Positions 47,747 through 54,506 of a stretch of DNA of 64,000 nt are shown piece by piece; within the stretch, counting starts at the first letter, position 1; each line of letters starts with the position of its first letter. The position numbers were made by a program, and so were the translations under genes. This stretch comes from Pontibacter diazotrophicus (GTDB taxonomy: Bacteria; Bacteroidota; Bacteroidia; Cytophagales; Hymenobacteraceae). A model generated the notes under the pieces. That model saw only the letters and a program-made list of their open reading frames with translations, had not been told where the DNA came from and made no database searches. The stretch is taken from contig NZ_QRGR01000015.1 of the NCBI RefSeq assembly GCF_003367245.1, positions 1-64,000 of the forward strand, in the 5' to 3' direction.

Positions 47747-48472
47747 ATGAAAACATTGAGGCCGCTTCTGCTGATACTGTTCTTCATAACAGCTCATACT
47801 CTTGCCTATGCGCAACAACTGGAAGTAAAGAAGCTAGCGAAGAACGTGTGGGTGCATACTTCCTACAACACGTTCAAGGGCACCACATACCCATCCAACG
47901 GCCTTATTATTTCAACTTCGGATGGGGTGTTTTTGATAGACAAGGCCTGGGGCGACGAGCAAACGGAGCAACTGCTGGCATGGGTAAAAGATAACCTGAA
48001 ACAACCTGTGAGAATGTGCATCGTCACCCACGCCCATGATGACCGTATGGGCGGCATTACGGTGCTGCAAAAGCAGAATATAGCGGTGCTCAGTTCTGCT
48101 CAAACAGCCCAATTAGCGGCAGCGCAGAACTTAGGCAAGCCGGATAGTATACTGCAGCTTAACCAGCCATTCAGTGTAGGGGAACAAAAGTTAGTGGCAT
48201 TTTATCCTGGAGCAGGCCATACAGTTGATAACCTGGTAGTATACCTGCCACAGCAGAAGGTGCTGTTCGGTGGGTGCCTGGTGAAAGATGCGAAGGCAAT
48301 TGACCTTGGTAATACTGCTGATGCGGATTTAAGCAACTGGCCAAATGCTATACAACAGGTGCAAAAGGAGTTTCCGAAGGCAAAGCTGGTGGTGCCGGGG
48401 CACGGCCAGTGGAGCGACCAGGTTGCCCTTACCCATACCTTATACTTGCTGCAACAGCACGCAAAGAAGTAA
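47747..48472 (+). CDS. Subclass B1 metallo-beta-lactamase
   Basis: B1 enzymes hydrolyse beta-lactams including carbapenems using two zinc ions. The 241-residue protein has a signal peptide (1-22, ending AYAQ) and every expected ligand. Site 1 is His95 and His97 with His158 (THAHDD, GAGHT). Site 2 is Asp99, Cys177 (GGCLVKD) and His219 (VPGHG). Lys180 is at the place that binds the drug carboxylate. The order and spacing match CcrA/BlaB/NDM-type proteins, not the glyoxalase or B3 branches. No mobile element is near, so it looks like an intrinsic chromosomal gene. Actual drug range is untested. Confidence 0.93.
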   Translation: MKTLRPLLLILFFITAHTLAYAQQLEVKKLAKNVWVHTSYNTFKGTTYPSNGLIISTSDGVFLIDKAWGDEQTEQLLAWVKDNLKQPVRMCIVTHAHDDRMGGITVLQKQNIAVLSSAQTAQLAAAQNLGKPDSILQLNQPFSVGEQKLVAFYPGAGHTVDNLVVYLPQQKVLFGGCLVKDAKAIDLGNTADADLSNWPNAIQQVQKEFPKAKLVVPGHGQWSDQVALTHTLYLLQQHAKK

Positions 48473-50593: not shown

Positions 50594-51400
50594 ATGAATA
50601 AACCAACAGAAAGCAACGCATGCTATACAATAAAACGTGGCAATAGCCCTCTGGTGGCCACTGCCATCCACAGCGGACACGATGTGCGCCAGAACATCAG
50701 CAACCTTTTTGCACTGGCGGCAGAAGAACGCCTCCGCGAAGAAGACCCCTATACAGACGCATGGGTCGTGATAACCGATAATCAAATTATAGGGCATAAC
50801 TCCCGCTTTGAGCTGGACCTGAACCGCCCGCCCGAGCAAGCTATCTACCGTAAACCCGAAGATGCCTGGGGCCTGCACGTCTGGAAAGAAGATTTTCCTG
50901 AAGATCTGGCCAGGGAGTCGATGGGCCGCTATGACCAGTTTTATGCTGATGTGAAACAGATGCTGACTCAAATTCAGGAGCAGCACGGCTGCTTTGTAGT
51001 ATACGACCTGCATACCTATAACCATAAGCGCGAGGGAGCTAATGGCCCCGCCGCTAACCCCGAAGAAAACCCGGAAGTGAACATCGGCACCGGAAACATG
51101 AACCGCGAAAAATGGGCACCGGTCATAGATGCCTTCACGCACAGCCTGAGTGCCTACGACTACCAGGGCCGCCACCTGGACGTGCGCGAGAACGTGAAGT
51201 TTAAAGGAGGCTATTTTATGCGCTGGATTCACGACACCTTCGGCGACAAGGCCTGTGTGATGAGCATCGAGTTCAAAAAGTTCTTTATGGATGAGTGGAC
51301 AGGAGAGCCCGATGAGGCACAGGTGCAGGAGATTCGCAAGGCGCTGGAGCAAACCACTGAGCCCGTGCTGGAGGCGCTCGCCAAAGTGTGCCAGCCATAA
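50594..51400 (+). CDS. N-formylglutamate amidohydrolase-family protein
   Basis: The FGase family removes formyl or related groups from amino acids. The 268-residue protein has 'LVATAIHSGHDVR' (metal-binding His), 'HNSRFELDLNRP', 'CFVVYDLHTYNHKREG' and 'GDKACVMSIEFKKFFMDE', consistent with a zinc hydrolase related to HutG2 and aspartoacylase-like peptidases. I start at 50594 (MNKPTESNA); the upstream open frame is antisense to other genes and lacks support. It heads the operon with the QEGLA and ATP-grasp genes (82 and 49-base gaps). Given the partners, a carboxyl-side or acyl-peptide substrate is likely, not N-formylglutamate itself. Confidence 0.85.
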   Translation: MNKPTESNACYTIKRGNSPLVATAIHSGHDVRQNISNLFALAAEERLREEDPYTDAWVVITDNQIIGHNSRFELDLNRPPEQAIYRKPEDAWGLHVWKEDFPEDLARESMGRYDQFYADVKQMLTQIQEQHGCFVVYDLHTYNHKREGANGPAANPEENPEVNIGTGNMNREKWAPVIDAFTHSLSAYDYQGRHLDVRENVKFKGGYFMRWIHDTFGDKACVMSIEFKKFFMDEWTGEPDEAQVQEIRKALEQTTEPVLEALAKVCQP

Positions 51401-51482
51401 AGGAAGTGGACAAGTGCCGGGAGTACCCTGTAACAGGCAAGCCCATACCGCCTTCTGCTTCTATTTACTACAAACTAACAGA

Positions 51483-53330
51483 ATGATTGAAGAAATAACC
51501 GACAAGTTTATAAAGAAAATAAGCCGTAGCCTGGAGCGCGGCAAGCAAGTGCACCGGCGGCTGCCAAAAGGCGGGCTGGTCTACATCGACAGGCCCCTGC
51601 CCTTCCTGGTGCTGTTCCGCCACCCTGCCGGTAAACCCGACCATGCCACCGCCGATTTTGTGAAGGCAACCGCCTCTTACATCATCTCGCATGAAGAGCA
51701 GACACCACGGCTGCAGGAGCTGGTCCGGGCAATCGCCAGTGCCATGGCAGACGAGTTTGGTGCTTTTATGATACTGGAACTGATGGCGGCTCCTTCAGAT
51801 GATCCGGCAACCCCTATGTTTAAAGTGCTGGGGCCGGAGAAACTGCTACCCGCCACCACCCGCACCCTTACCAATGAACTCGAAAACATTAAAGTCAGTG
51901 GTCTCCGCACAGACGTAGAGACAGCCTCTAACAAGCCACTGCTGGAGGGGCCCCAGCGCCTGATGCCGGAAGAAGAACTGAAAAAGCACGGCTACCTGAT
52001 GCTCGGGCTACAGCTGAAATCCGTTTACTGCGACAGCGAGACAGGAAAGGCTTACCCCTTGCTGTTGCGGACTATCCGCGAGAAGCTCTCCGAGGCCATC
52101 AAGAAAACAGTATATGACTTTGTGTCGGTGCAGACATCACACAAGCCTATCCATTTTCAGGCGCTGGGGCGACAGGCCGTAAACCGGGTGGTGTGGCGCA
52201 TCGACAAGCAGCTCACCGGCATCAGCGACCAGTTCCAGTTTCTGATGCTCGTATCGCCGGTAAACCATAACGAGGCCTGGGCAGAATTCAGGAAAGCGAA
52301 GTTCAAAAAAGCCCCGCACCTCCACTACCGCCTGATGCCCGTAGACGCTGACCAGCTGAAGCGCAAGCTTTACAACATCTCCATCGAGAAAGTAGACGAC
52401 CCTACCCTGGCTTACCTGTTCCGCGACAAGCGCCATGAACTGGACAAGATGCTGACCATGCTGGCAGACCGCAACACGCCTGACTTTATGTACAGCAGCA
52501 TGCAGGTGTTTGGCGGCGTAGACGACCAGCTGCTGAAAATTGCTGAAGGCATCCTGGCGGCCATCCCCGAGCCAACCCGCGACACGAACGCTGACATCAT
52601 ACCTGTTGCAGAGTTTGCCGCGCTGGCCGAACAGGAAATTGCCTTCCTCAAAGAACAGTATCCCGGCGTGGATTCAGGTGTACATGTGCGGGATGACATC
52701 GTAGGCCTGCTGGTGTCTAAAGGAAAGCTGAATATAGGCTCAGACTACATCATACCCCGCCACCGCGCACAGGCGCTGATACAGCATGAGGTAGGCACCC
52801 ACATCCTGACCTACTTTAACGGAAAGGCGCAGCCGTTGAAGCAGCTGTACGTGGGCAGCCCGGGCTATGAGGAGCTGCAGGAGGGGCTGGCAGTGCTGAG
52901 CGAGTACCTCGTAGGTGGCCTCGACCAGGACCGGATGCGCATGCTGGCGGCACGTGTGGTGGCCGTTTACCACATGACCAAAGGCTGCACCTTCCCCGAT
53001 ACCTTTATGCGCCTGAGAGACGACTATCACTTTGACGAAGATACGGCCTTTGATATTACCATGCGCGTGCACCGCGGGGGCGGCCTCACCAAAGATGCCG
53101 TGTACCTGCGCGGCCTCGTGCACCTGCTCGACTACCTGAAACAGGGCCACGAACTGGAGCCACTGCTCATCGGTAAAATCCGGCAGGATTACATTCCGAT
53201 TGTGCAGGAGCTGATTTACCGCAATGTGCTGCAACCGGTACCTATCAAGCCCCGCTACCTGCTCGACCCGGCTATCAAACCGAAACTGGAACAACTAAAA
53301 GCGGGCATATCAGTATTTAACCTACTGTGA
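51483..53330 (+). CDS. DUF1704 'QEGLA-motif' metallopeptidase-like protein
   Basis: The 615-residue protein carries HEVGTH (435-440, an HExxxH zinc motif) and the QEGLA motif (466-470), whose Glu is the likely third ligand. DUF1704 includes eukaryotic MATCAP, a tubulin C-terminal tyrosine carboxypeptidase, so a bacterial carboxypeptidase activity is inferred. Other conserved blocks are 'IPRHRAQALIQHEVGTHILTYFNG', 'PGYEELQEGLAVLSEYLVGG' and 'DRMRMLAARVVAVYHMTKG'. The N-terminal half holds a helical region with 'RPLPFLVLFR'. I start at 51483 because an upstream extension overlaps the FGase gene. It is the middle gene of the three-gene operon. Confidence 0.88.
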   Translation: MIEEITDKFIKKISRSLERGKQVHRRLPKGGLVYIDRPLPFLVLFRHPAGKPDHATADFVKATASYIISHEEQTPRLQELVRAIASAMADEFGAFMILELMAAPSDDPATPMFKVLGPEKLLPATTRTLTNELENIKVSGLRTDVETASNKPLLEGPQRLMPEEELKKHGYLMLGLQLKSVYCDSETGKAYPLLLRTIREKLSEAIKKTVYDFVSVQTSHKPIHFQALGRQAVNRVVWRIDKQLTGISDQFQFLMLVSPVNHNEAWAEFRKAKFKKAPHLHYRLMPVDADQLKRKLYNISIEKVDDPTLAYLFRDKRHELDKMLTMLADRNTPDFMYSSMQVFGGVDDQLLKIAEGILAAIPEPTRDTNADIIPVAEFAALAEQEIAFLKEQYPGVDSGVHVRDDIVGLLVSKGKLNIGSDYIIPRHRAQALIQHEVGTHILTYFNGKAQPLKQLYVGSPGYEELQEGLAVLSEYLVGGLDQDRMRMLAARVVAVYHMTKGCTFPDTFMRLRDDYHFDEDTAFDITMRVHRGGGLTKDAVYLRGLVHLLDYLKQGHELEPLLIGKIRQDYIPIVQELIYRNVLQPVPIKPRYLLDPAIKPKLEQLKAGISVFNLL

Positions 53331-53379
53331 ACGATTTTCACGGTACCTGTTAAATAAGTACAAAACGCATCTGAATAAA

Positions 53380-54429
53380 ATGAATATAGGATTTGTAGTA
53401 AACGAAGTAAACACTGAAAAGGCGAACTACTCCACCATCTTCCTGGCACAGCGCATGCACAACCAGGGGCACACCGTTTACCTGATGGGCGTCGGGGATT
53501 TAGCTTATTATCCGGATGGCTATATGGGTGCCACGGCCACGCAGGCTGACCCCAAGCACAAGTACAAATCCGGCGCTACTTATTTAGAGGCCATTCAAGG
53601 TGACAAGGCAAATAAAGTGCGCGTTACAGCCCGGGACCTGGACGTGCTCATGCTCCGCAATGATCCTTCCGCCGAAGCGGAAGGACGTACCTGGGCACAG
53701 AACGCAGGTATTATTTTCGGGCAGCTGGCCATGCGCCACGGCGTTATCGTGCTCAACGACCCGACTTCGCTTTCCGATGCTGTGAACAAAATGTACTTCC
53801 AGCATTTTCCGGAAGCCGTAAGGCCACGCACGCTGATTACGCGCGATAAAGACGAGATAAAGGAGTTTTTTAATGAGCAAAAAAATAATATCATCCTAAA
53901 GCCACTGCAGGGCTCCGGTGGTTCCGGCGTATTCATGGTAAAGAAAGAGGACGCCACCAACCTGAATCAGATTGTGGAGGCCATCAGCCGCGACGGCTAT
54001 GTGATTGCGCAGGAATACCTGCCGGAGGCCACAGAGGGCGACGTGCGCCTGCTGGTCATGAATGGAGAAGCACTGCAGCATAAAGGAAAATACTGCGCCA
54101 TTCATCGGGTAGGAAGCAAAGACGATATCCGAAGCAACCTACACGCCGGCGGCTCCACGAAAGCGGCAAAAGTAACGCAGACTATGCTTGACCTGGTGGA
54201 GCTCGTAAGGCCTAAACTCATACAGGACGGTATGTTCCTGGTAGGGCTGGACATTGTGGGCAATAAGCTGATGGAGATAAATGTGTTCAGCCCCGGAGGC
54301 CTCTACGACGCGTCCGAAATGGAGGGCGTGGATTTCTCAGAACCTCTGATGGCTGCGCTGGAGCGAAAGGTGCATTACAAGAAGACGTATGGTGTACAGA
54401 TCGACAATAAAACCGTCGCGATGATTTAG
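53380..54429 (+). CDS. ATP-grasp ligase, glutathione-synthetase-like
   Basis: ATP-grasp enzymes form amide bonds through an acyl-phosphate. The 349-residue protein has an N-terminal GshB-like region ('MNIGFVVNEVNTEKANYSTIFLAQRMHNQG'), the ATP-binding 'NIILKPLQGSGGSGVFMV', 'YVIAQEYLPEATEGDVRLLVMNGEA' and metal ligands in MEINVFSPGG (Glu299, Asn301). The GshB nature is a resemblance only; a gamma-glutamylcysteine synthetase is not in this window, so true glutathione synthesis is doubtful. It is the last gene of the FGase-QEGLA-ATP-grasp operon and is followed by a terminator hairpin. Confidence 0.9.
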   Translation: MNIGFVVNEVNTEKANYSTIFLAQRMHNQGHTVYLMGVGDLAYYPDGYMGATATQADPKHKYKSGATYLEAIQGDKANKVRVTARDLDVLMLRNDPSAEAEGRTWAQNAGIIFGQLAMRHGVIVLNDPTSLSDAVNKMYFQHFPEAVRPRTLITRDKDEIKEFFNEQKNNIILKPLQGSGGSGVFMVKKEDATNLNQIVEAISRDGYVIAQEYLPEATEGDVRLLVMNGEALQHKGKYCAIHRVGSKDDIRSNLHAGGSTKAAKVTQTMLDLVELVRPKLIQDGMFLVGLDIVGNKLMEINVFSPGGLYDASEMEGVDFSEPLMAALERKVHYKKTYGVQIDNKTVAMI

Positions 54430-54458: not shown

Positions 54459-54506
54459 AGATGGCTAAGTTTACCAGGAGTGCATACTGGTGTGACTTAG
54501 CCATCT
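54459..54506 (+). terminator. Hairpin after the ATP-grasp gene
   Basis: AGATGGCTAAGT (54459-54470) pairs with ACTTAGCCATCT (54495-54506), with an inner ACCAG/CTGGT stem (54473-54477 and 54487-54491). It lies 30 bases after the stop, though the T-run is short. Confidence 0.6.

Follow-up and report, generated by a model that had tools for sequence, protein, structure and literature searches.

Predicted gene neighborhoods in which amide ligases are linked to peptidases were reportedly put forward as a general logic by Iyer et al. in 2009, and tubulin tyrosine ligase (TTL) is an ATP-grasp enzyme. RimK adds glutamate to RpsF (ribosomal protein S6) and RimB removes it, as stated in excerpts of two reports (PMC12239564; for the removal by RimB also PMC11957791). 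In an excerpt of a third report, human MATCAP-family enzymes (TMCP1/2) strip glutamates, besides tyrosine, from tubulin (PMC10499314). Here, we analyzed a 64,000-nucleotide stretch of the Pontibacter diazotrophicus genome (contig NZ_QRGR01000015.1, positions 1 to 64,000), which we refer to in its entirety as the window. At 50594-54429 of the window, three genes on the + strand are assigned by Pfam to FGase, MATCAP/DUF1704, and an ATP-grasp ligase. A first-pass annotation of this DNA had described a three-gene unit of an FGase, a DUF1704 protein with HExxxH and QEGLA motifs, and an ATP-grasp enzyme, and all three are present at these coordinates on the same strand. The FGase-MATCAP-ligase unit is real and widely conserved, and its gene order is preserved far beyond chance. 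Searches of open-licence literature listed no paper with a title or abstract opening that describes such a bacterial unit.

Conservation of the three-gene unit

The first gene of the unit (50594..51400, +) encodes an FGase, an M14-like amidohydrolase with the N-formylglutamate amidohydrolase fold (PF05013, 73.8 bits against a cut-off of 28.9). After a gap of 82 nt it is followed by the gene for a 615-aa long-form MATCAP/DUF1704 protein (51483..53330, +; PF08014, 293.6 bits against a cut-off of 27) and, after a further 49 nt, by the gene for an ATP-grasp carboxylate-amine ligase of the GshB/RimK type (53380..54429, +; GSH-S_ATP PF02955, 183.5 bits; RimK PF08443, 63.3 bits; GSH-S_N PF02951, 36.7 bits). 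The mechanical open reading frame (ORF) for MATCAP opens at 51291, and we set its start to the ATG at 51483, where the alignment of its relatives begins.

For the MATCAP protein, a scan of a collection of species genomes yielded at least 572 relatives, from which we kept the best 80 long-form loci. Nine of these are Pontibacter loci, with 74-79% identity across the whole MATCAP protein. The 80 loci come from Bacteroidota genera, Balneolaceae, Planctomycetota, Poribacteria, Acidobacteria, Calditrichaeota, Verrucomicrobia, Kiritimatiellae, Gemmatimonadota, Campylobacterales/Epsilonproteobacteria, Gammaproteobacteria, Nitrosomonas, Deltaproteobacteria, Magnetococcales, and an actinomycete, and thus span at least ten phylum-level groups. 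Misbinning is possible, since many of the loci are from metagenome-assembled genomes. A ligase gene lies directly 3' of MATCAP on the same strand in 77 of the 80 loci, with a median gap of 9 nt and a gap of at most 50 nt in 73 of the 77. The exceptions are L057, which is at a contig end, and L054 and L108, in which the ligase is encoded nearby on the opposite strand. Of the 80 loci, 64 have an FGase gene, directly upstream of MATCAP in 62 and nearby in 2, and nine of the 16 FGase-less loci have an AstE/AspA-type amidohydrolase instead (two representatives were identified by Pfam), encoded downstream of the ligase and, in L068 and L071, on the opposite strand. The median gaps among the relatives are -11 and 9 nt, although negative gaps may be overstated because each ORF was counted from its earliest start codon following a stop. 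Joint conservation of the three genes, which the first-pass annotation had left to be confirmed, is borne out by these counts.

Within Bacteroidota, the phylum of the window, PF08014 occurs in 16 of 296 genomes. The ligase family NF009110, at 396 bits or more, occurs in 15 of the 296, all of which are among the 16 with PF08014 (Fisher p 2.6e-24 on 15/1/0/280, a value that ignores the kinship of the genomes and is indicative only). This count includes genome G002 at 396.5 bits, which is under the family cut-off of 408, and excludes G194 and G076, whose proteins at 194-215 bits we take to be other GshB-like proteins. Among the 15 Bacteroidota regions besides the window, an ATP-grasp gene is in the same cluster in 14; the FGase is separate in 11 and fused in one, an AspA-type gene is present in two, and ligase, FGase, and AspA are all absent from one (L022, a divergent protein of 424 aa). 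The arrangement found in the window, layout A, is FGase, long MATCAP (~610-690 aa), and ligase, while layout B (L023, L024, L025, and L030) has the ligase on the far side of the FGase, followed by the FGase and a short MATCAP (~390 aa). L027 and L028 have a long MATCAP with both kinds of ligase. In L026, FGase and MATCAP are parts of a single 667-aa protein (Pfam: FGase 37-175, MATCAP 324-651), and custom hidden Markov models indicate fusions of the same kind in L190, L191, and L192.

We also considered the class to which the Sedimenticola genome G308 belongs. PF08014 occurs there in 35 of 229 genomes, and 14 of the 229 encode a member of the ligase family at E 1e-90 or better, nine of them over the cut-off; 12 of these 14 have PF08014. 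From 33 of the 35 PF08014 genomes, leaving out G308 itself and the fragmentary G338, we read 34 regions, 12 of which contain the operon or an FGase-MATCAP fusion.

The loci vary in further respects. Tandem copies of MATCAP and/or the ligase occur in L059, L069, L074, L081, L102, and L112, the last of which consists of an FGase, two MATCAPs, and three ligases. A gene for a glutamine cyclotransferase (PF05096; L115:10827-11789) lies directly 3' of the ligase in a unit that has neither FGase nor AspA, rhodanese-domain genes lie within or beside the unit at L027:10219-11037, L030:5370-6206, and L073:10881-11495, and the FGase at L201:3066-5177 has a 450-residue N-terminal extension with no Pfam match in a unit that is otherwise normal. 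CorA is found in 7 of the 80 neighborhoods and an MscS-like protein in 4 (one representative of each by Pfam), a hint of osmotic stress that we did not use as evidence.

The peptidase, the ligase, and the amidohydrolase

The C-terminal gluzincin domain of the window MATCAP (residues 254-615; 52242..53327, +) carries the HExxxH motif as HEVGTH at residues 435-440 (H435, E436, and H440) and the QEGLA motif as Q466-E467-G468 (QEG, 466-468), and these residues are invariant when the window protein is aligned with those of 61 of the 80 loci. HExxxH together with [QE]EG[LI]A is found in all 85 of the 85 MATCAP copies of the 80 loci. The AlphaFold2 (AF2) model of the protein has a predicted local distance difference test score (pLDDT) of 93, and its residues 254-615 match human MATCAP (7z6s/7z5g) with a Z score of 25 (25.1 for 7z6s), a root-mean-square deviation (rmsd) of 3.0 over 291 aligned residues, and 19% identity. 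The same domain matches human MATCAP by Foldseek (E 5.8e-9) and by profile comparison (E 2.1e-11), and TIGR02421 (QEGLA) scores 321 bits on the window protein, slightly short of its cut-off of 338.65. The conserved fold and motifs support the identification of the window peptidase as a true MATCAP homolog.

The operon had initially been said to hold the same pair of enzyme types as the tubulin cycle. For the peptidase this stands, since the carboxypeptidase domains are homologous and share the HExxxH and EG motifs, and an ATP-grasp ligase opposes the peptidase both in the bacterial unit and in the pairing of tubulin MATCAP/TMCP with TTL/TTLL. For the ligase it does not: the window ligase is GshB/RimK-like, no TTL family is among its Pfam matches at E 0.01, and its likeness to TTL is at the level of the ATP-grasp superfamily only. 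The bacterial long form also differs from the tubulin enzymes by its additional N-terminal domain, and no tubulin-like acceptor is known. A tyrosine tag added by a TTL-like ligase was considered and rejected given the lack of a TTL match. Since human MATCAP-family enzymes remove glutamates too, as the excerpt cited above states (PMC10499314), glutamate is no weaker a candidate than tyrosine.

The N-terminal domain of the window MATCAP (approximately residues 1-232; 51483..52178, +) has no Pfam match in its 232 residues. When profiles were compared using hhalign, it matched the FGase profile with Prob 89 and E 2.2e-6, as against E 0.16-0.44 for the profiles of AspA, the ligase, and the MATCAP C-terminal domain. 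Residues 28-218 match the N-formylglutamate amidohydrolase structure 2q7s (Z 14.5, rmsd 2.9, 176 aligned), a structure that Foldseek alone ranks fourth, as a weak match (E 9.2e-3). From knowledge of the fold, we take H140 of the FGase to be a metal ligand; in the corresponding column of the MATCAP N-terminal domains, tryptophan is found in 68 of 86 and histidine in 0 of 86. FGase H26 was paired with MATCAP R46 by eye, the hhalign alignment spanning the later part only. Given the profile match, the fold match, and the loss at the H140 column, we interpret the long MATCAP as a fusion of FGase and MATCAP in which the FGase half has probably lost catalysis, a pseudo-FGase encoded beside a live FGase. 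The presence of such a half on MATCAP suggests that the two enzymes bind one common substrate or related ones.

The ligase scores over the cut-off of NF009110/PRK12458 (462 against 408 bits) and under those of both glutathione-synthase equivalogs (NF003573, 222 against 272 bits; TIGR01380, 207 against 299 bits). It resembles GshB in fold and family, and its best match in the PDB is E. coli glutathione synthetase (1gsa, E 2.8e-38). A genome search found no PF04262 glutamate-cysteine ligase in the Pontibacter genome, and the sole GCS2 gene of the genome belongs to a separate operon that also encodes a C39-like peptidase, an RLAN-RimK ATP-grasp protein, and a second FGase (L118:8376-12536; genome G000, contig C1). 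In the 16 other operon genomes, PF04262, the only GshA type for which we searched, occurs in one, and a gene over the TIGR01380 cut-off occurs in three, each time on a contig other than that of the operon copy; 13 have no such gene. Judged by these family scores, the window ligase is not an ordinary GshB and is placed in the GshB/RimK group.

The FGase and AstE/AspA families act on N-acyl acidic amino acids. The AF2 model of the window FGase (pLDDT 95) matches the fold of the N-formylglutamate amidohydrolase 2q7s with a Z score of 24.4, and poly-gamma-glutamate hydrolases are among its structural matches, level with carboxypeptidases (Z ~11.7). A sequence search of the PDB with the FGase profile found no chain, whereas the fold search did match, and the window FGase sequence alone gave only chance-level matches in the PDB. 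H26, E49/E50/D51, R71, N77/R78, D138, H140, and E226 are invariant in 62 of 62 sequences, that of the window among them, and these polar residues probably form the active site. The alignment used for the FGase structure covered the window and 35 of the 64 FGase loci. In its fold and invariant polar residues, the window FGase is like HutG-type N-formylglutamate amidohydrolases and AstE/AspA hydrolases. However, it falls far under the HutG equivalog TIGR02017 (41.1 against 278.75 bits).

The Pontibacter genome also encodes RimB and RimK, with an AspA-type gene directly after them (L119:7282-9616), and this RimK is RimK proper (NF007764, 393 bits). In the phylum of the window, PF05618, the retropepsin-like family of the RimB peptidase, has 34 matches in 118 genomes, and we examined the loci of the best 30 (L204-L233). 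A RimK gene adjoins PF05618 in all 30, and an AspA-type gene follows in 20 of the 30, its absence from the others being uncertain because each locus ends ~1.5 kb from the match. Given this arrangement, the known cycle and the window unit have one formula, an ATP-grasp ligase, a dedicated peptidase, and an M14-like amidohydrolase, and the AstE/AspA type that follows RimK is the same type that replaces FGase in nine of the 80 window-type loci. The two systems differ in their peptidases, PF05618 being encoded elsewhere in the genome with RimK while the partner in the window is a gluzincin of PF08014, and in their ligases, since the window ligase fails the RimK-family cut-off (TIGR00768, 78 against 143 bits). 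RimK/RimB is the closest bacterial parallel to the window unit, one that the first-pass annotation had missed. We assign the window unit to neither the RimK/RimB system nor the TTL system.

A proposed cycle of amino-acid addition and removal

We propose that the unit encodes a cytoplasmic three-enzyme cycle for the ATP-driven addition and removal of an amino acid, most likely glutamate or aspartate, on an acceptor that may be a protein or a small molecule, a proposal that in our estimation stands an even chance of being correct. In such a cycle, the ATP-grasp ligase would use ATP to activate a carboxylate of the acceptor and join the amino acid to it, and MATCAP, as a zinc carboxypeptidase, would trim the added residue or residues from the free carboxyl terminus, the same substrate probably being held by its N-terminal domain, a dead FGase-like fold. 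The FGase, or the AstE/AspA-type substitute, would hydrolyze a linkage beyond the reach of the carboxypeptidase, either the innermost isopeptide/acyl-amino-acid bond or a released acidic acyl-amino acid. The balance between ligation and removal would set the level of the modified acceptor, as for RimK and RimB on ribosomal protein S6. We infer the enzyme activities, the identity of the amino acid, the cytoplasmic location, and this division of labor. The earlier suggestion of a tag-and-trim cycle on a peptide or protein C-terminus thus finds partial support: the conserved unit, the MATCAP homology, and the non-canonical ligase speak for it, while the protein acceptor, the C-terminal site, and the completion of turnover by the FGase were not supported.

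The amino acid handled by the unit is probably glutamate or aspartate, given the RimK/RimB parallel, the removal of glutamate by human MATCAP-family enzymes, the acidic N-acyl substrates of the FGase and AstE/AspA families, and the neighboring symporters. In L023, L024, and L027, Pfam identifies a Na+:dicarboxylate symporter gene immediately before a ligase, and a gene of similar size occupies the same position in L025, L028, and L030. Two further candidates were rejected. One is an acceptor peptide encoded within the operon, since the gaps are short both in the window (82 and 49 nt) and in the relatives; our clustering of neighbors covered ORFs of at least 80 aa, and a smaller acceptor gene may lie outside the unit. 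The other is a defense system, for which there was no PADLOC match.

Several observations weigh against the proposed cycle. For the bacterial unit, neither an activity nor a substrate or acceptor is known. Every case of a symporter belongs to the same family (f7), so these cases may go back to a single event. The flavobacterial AspA-type protein of this unit matched no AspA of the RimK loci at E 1e-5, and the proteins are distant from one another. FGase and AspA are both missing from seven of the 80 loci (two lie at contig ends), and in the class of G308 two of the 14 ligase genomes (G503 and G521) have no PF08014 match and an FGase-MATCAP fusion in G416 occurs with no ligase. Moreover, 22 of the 34 regions read in that class contain a solitary MATCAP (~430-700 aa) with no operon-type ligase or FGase; therefore, MATCAP need not work with a ligase. 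These solitary genes are those of L170-L189, L202, and L203, the last with a tandem pair, and two of the 22 regions contain a weak RimK-like ATP-grasp protein (66-70 bits). Finally, NF009110, the family that the window ligase joins, bears the name glutathione synthetase, and the layout-B ligase of L023 passes the PRK05246 glutathione-synthase cut-off (281.6 against 272).

The alternative that survives best is a small-peptide metabolite pathway, in which the ATP-grasp enzyme would make a di- or tripeptide (gamma-glutamyl, N-acyl, or poly-glutamate in type), to be processed or degraded by MATCAP and FGase, with no protein tag involved. The activities known for these families fit such a pathway: GshB-type ligases make small peptides, and free N-acyl amino acids are the substrates of the FGase/AspA families. 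It is also favored by the second locus of the genome, with its RLAN-RimK ATP-grasp protein, GCS2, C39-like peptidase, and FGase, by the tandem ligases and MATCAPs, which resemble multi-step synthesis, and by the poly-gamma-glutamate hydrolases among the structural matches of the FGase. However, among gene clusters shared by three or more of the 80 loci, most of these clusters being unannotated, no exporter or tailoring gene is as widespread as the core, and the extra clusters are mostly confined to related genera, such as an ABC transporter found in 9 loci from Pontibacter and 2 from Sphingobacterium. In addition, the MATCAP relatives whose activity is known act on protein tails, according to the excerpt on the human enzymes (PMC10499314). 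We consider this pathway possible, though on balance doubtful.

That the operon makes glutathione or a close analog is very unlikely. We retain the idea at all because the window ligase is over the NF009110 cut-off and the L023 ligase passes PRK05246, to which the 1gsa match and the GCS2 gene elsewhere in the genome may be added. Glutathione was rejected as the main explanation because the window ligase falls under both equivalog cut-offs, because a PF04262 GshA is missing from this genome and from all but one of the 16 other operon genomes, and because a separate over-cut-off GshB coexists with the operon copy in three of those genomes. Scarcely credible is the view that the three genes are mere neighbors and encode a general peptidase, a hydrolase of amino-acid salvage, and a ligase unrelated to them; it is favored by the solitary MATCAP genes and contradicted by synteny in at least ten phylum-level groups, by fusion, by the shared pseudo-domain, and by reciprocal co-occurrence.

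Two other features of the window lie outside the three genes. Directly 3' of the ligase gene is an inverted repeat (54459-54470 / 54495-54506) with 12-nt arms that are 100% complementary and 24 nt apart. It is followed by TTA only and is not among the sites found by a consensus terminator scan, so it may be a weak terminator at best. Farther upstream, the gene at 47747-48472 (+) encodes a subclass B1 metallo-beta-lactamase (NCBIfam NF033088, 298 against a cut-off of 200 bits) that is under the allele-family cut-offs (among 25 of 56 matches).

Implications

In an excerpt of a transcriptome study of the marine pathogen Photobacterium damselae that compares 1% with 3% NaCl, the genes annotated 'GshB' (RS17020), 'QEGLA' (RS17025), and RimK are up 38-fold, 27.5-fold, and 52-fold, respectively (PMC10308900). 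The locus numbers and names hint that RS17020 and RS17025 are neighbors and represent this unit. A more far-reaching version of our proposal, which we advance tentatively and regard as unlikely to hold in full, is that, in at least ten phylum-level groups, the unit runs a glutamylation cycle in addition to, and independently of, that of RimK/RimB. In it, MATCAP would be the eraser and FGase/AspA would remove the branch-point residue, as CCP5 does on tubulin; the eraser of the tubulin code would be of bacterial descent; and in Photobacterium the cycle would take part in a low-salinity response along with RimK.

If the proposed cycle of addition and removal is correct, a widespread bacterial operon that has had no known role would become testable as an amino-acid addition and removal cycle, and database names would be corrected, in which the ligase is now entered as 'glutathione synthetase' and the peptidase as 'flavohemoglobin expression-modulating'. 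The RimB-RimK-AspA neighborhood raises the possibility that a third partner has been missed in RimK/RimB as well. The family of enzymes that erases marks from animal tubulin would likewise gain a bacterial setting with an opposing ligase of its own.

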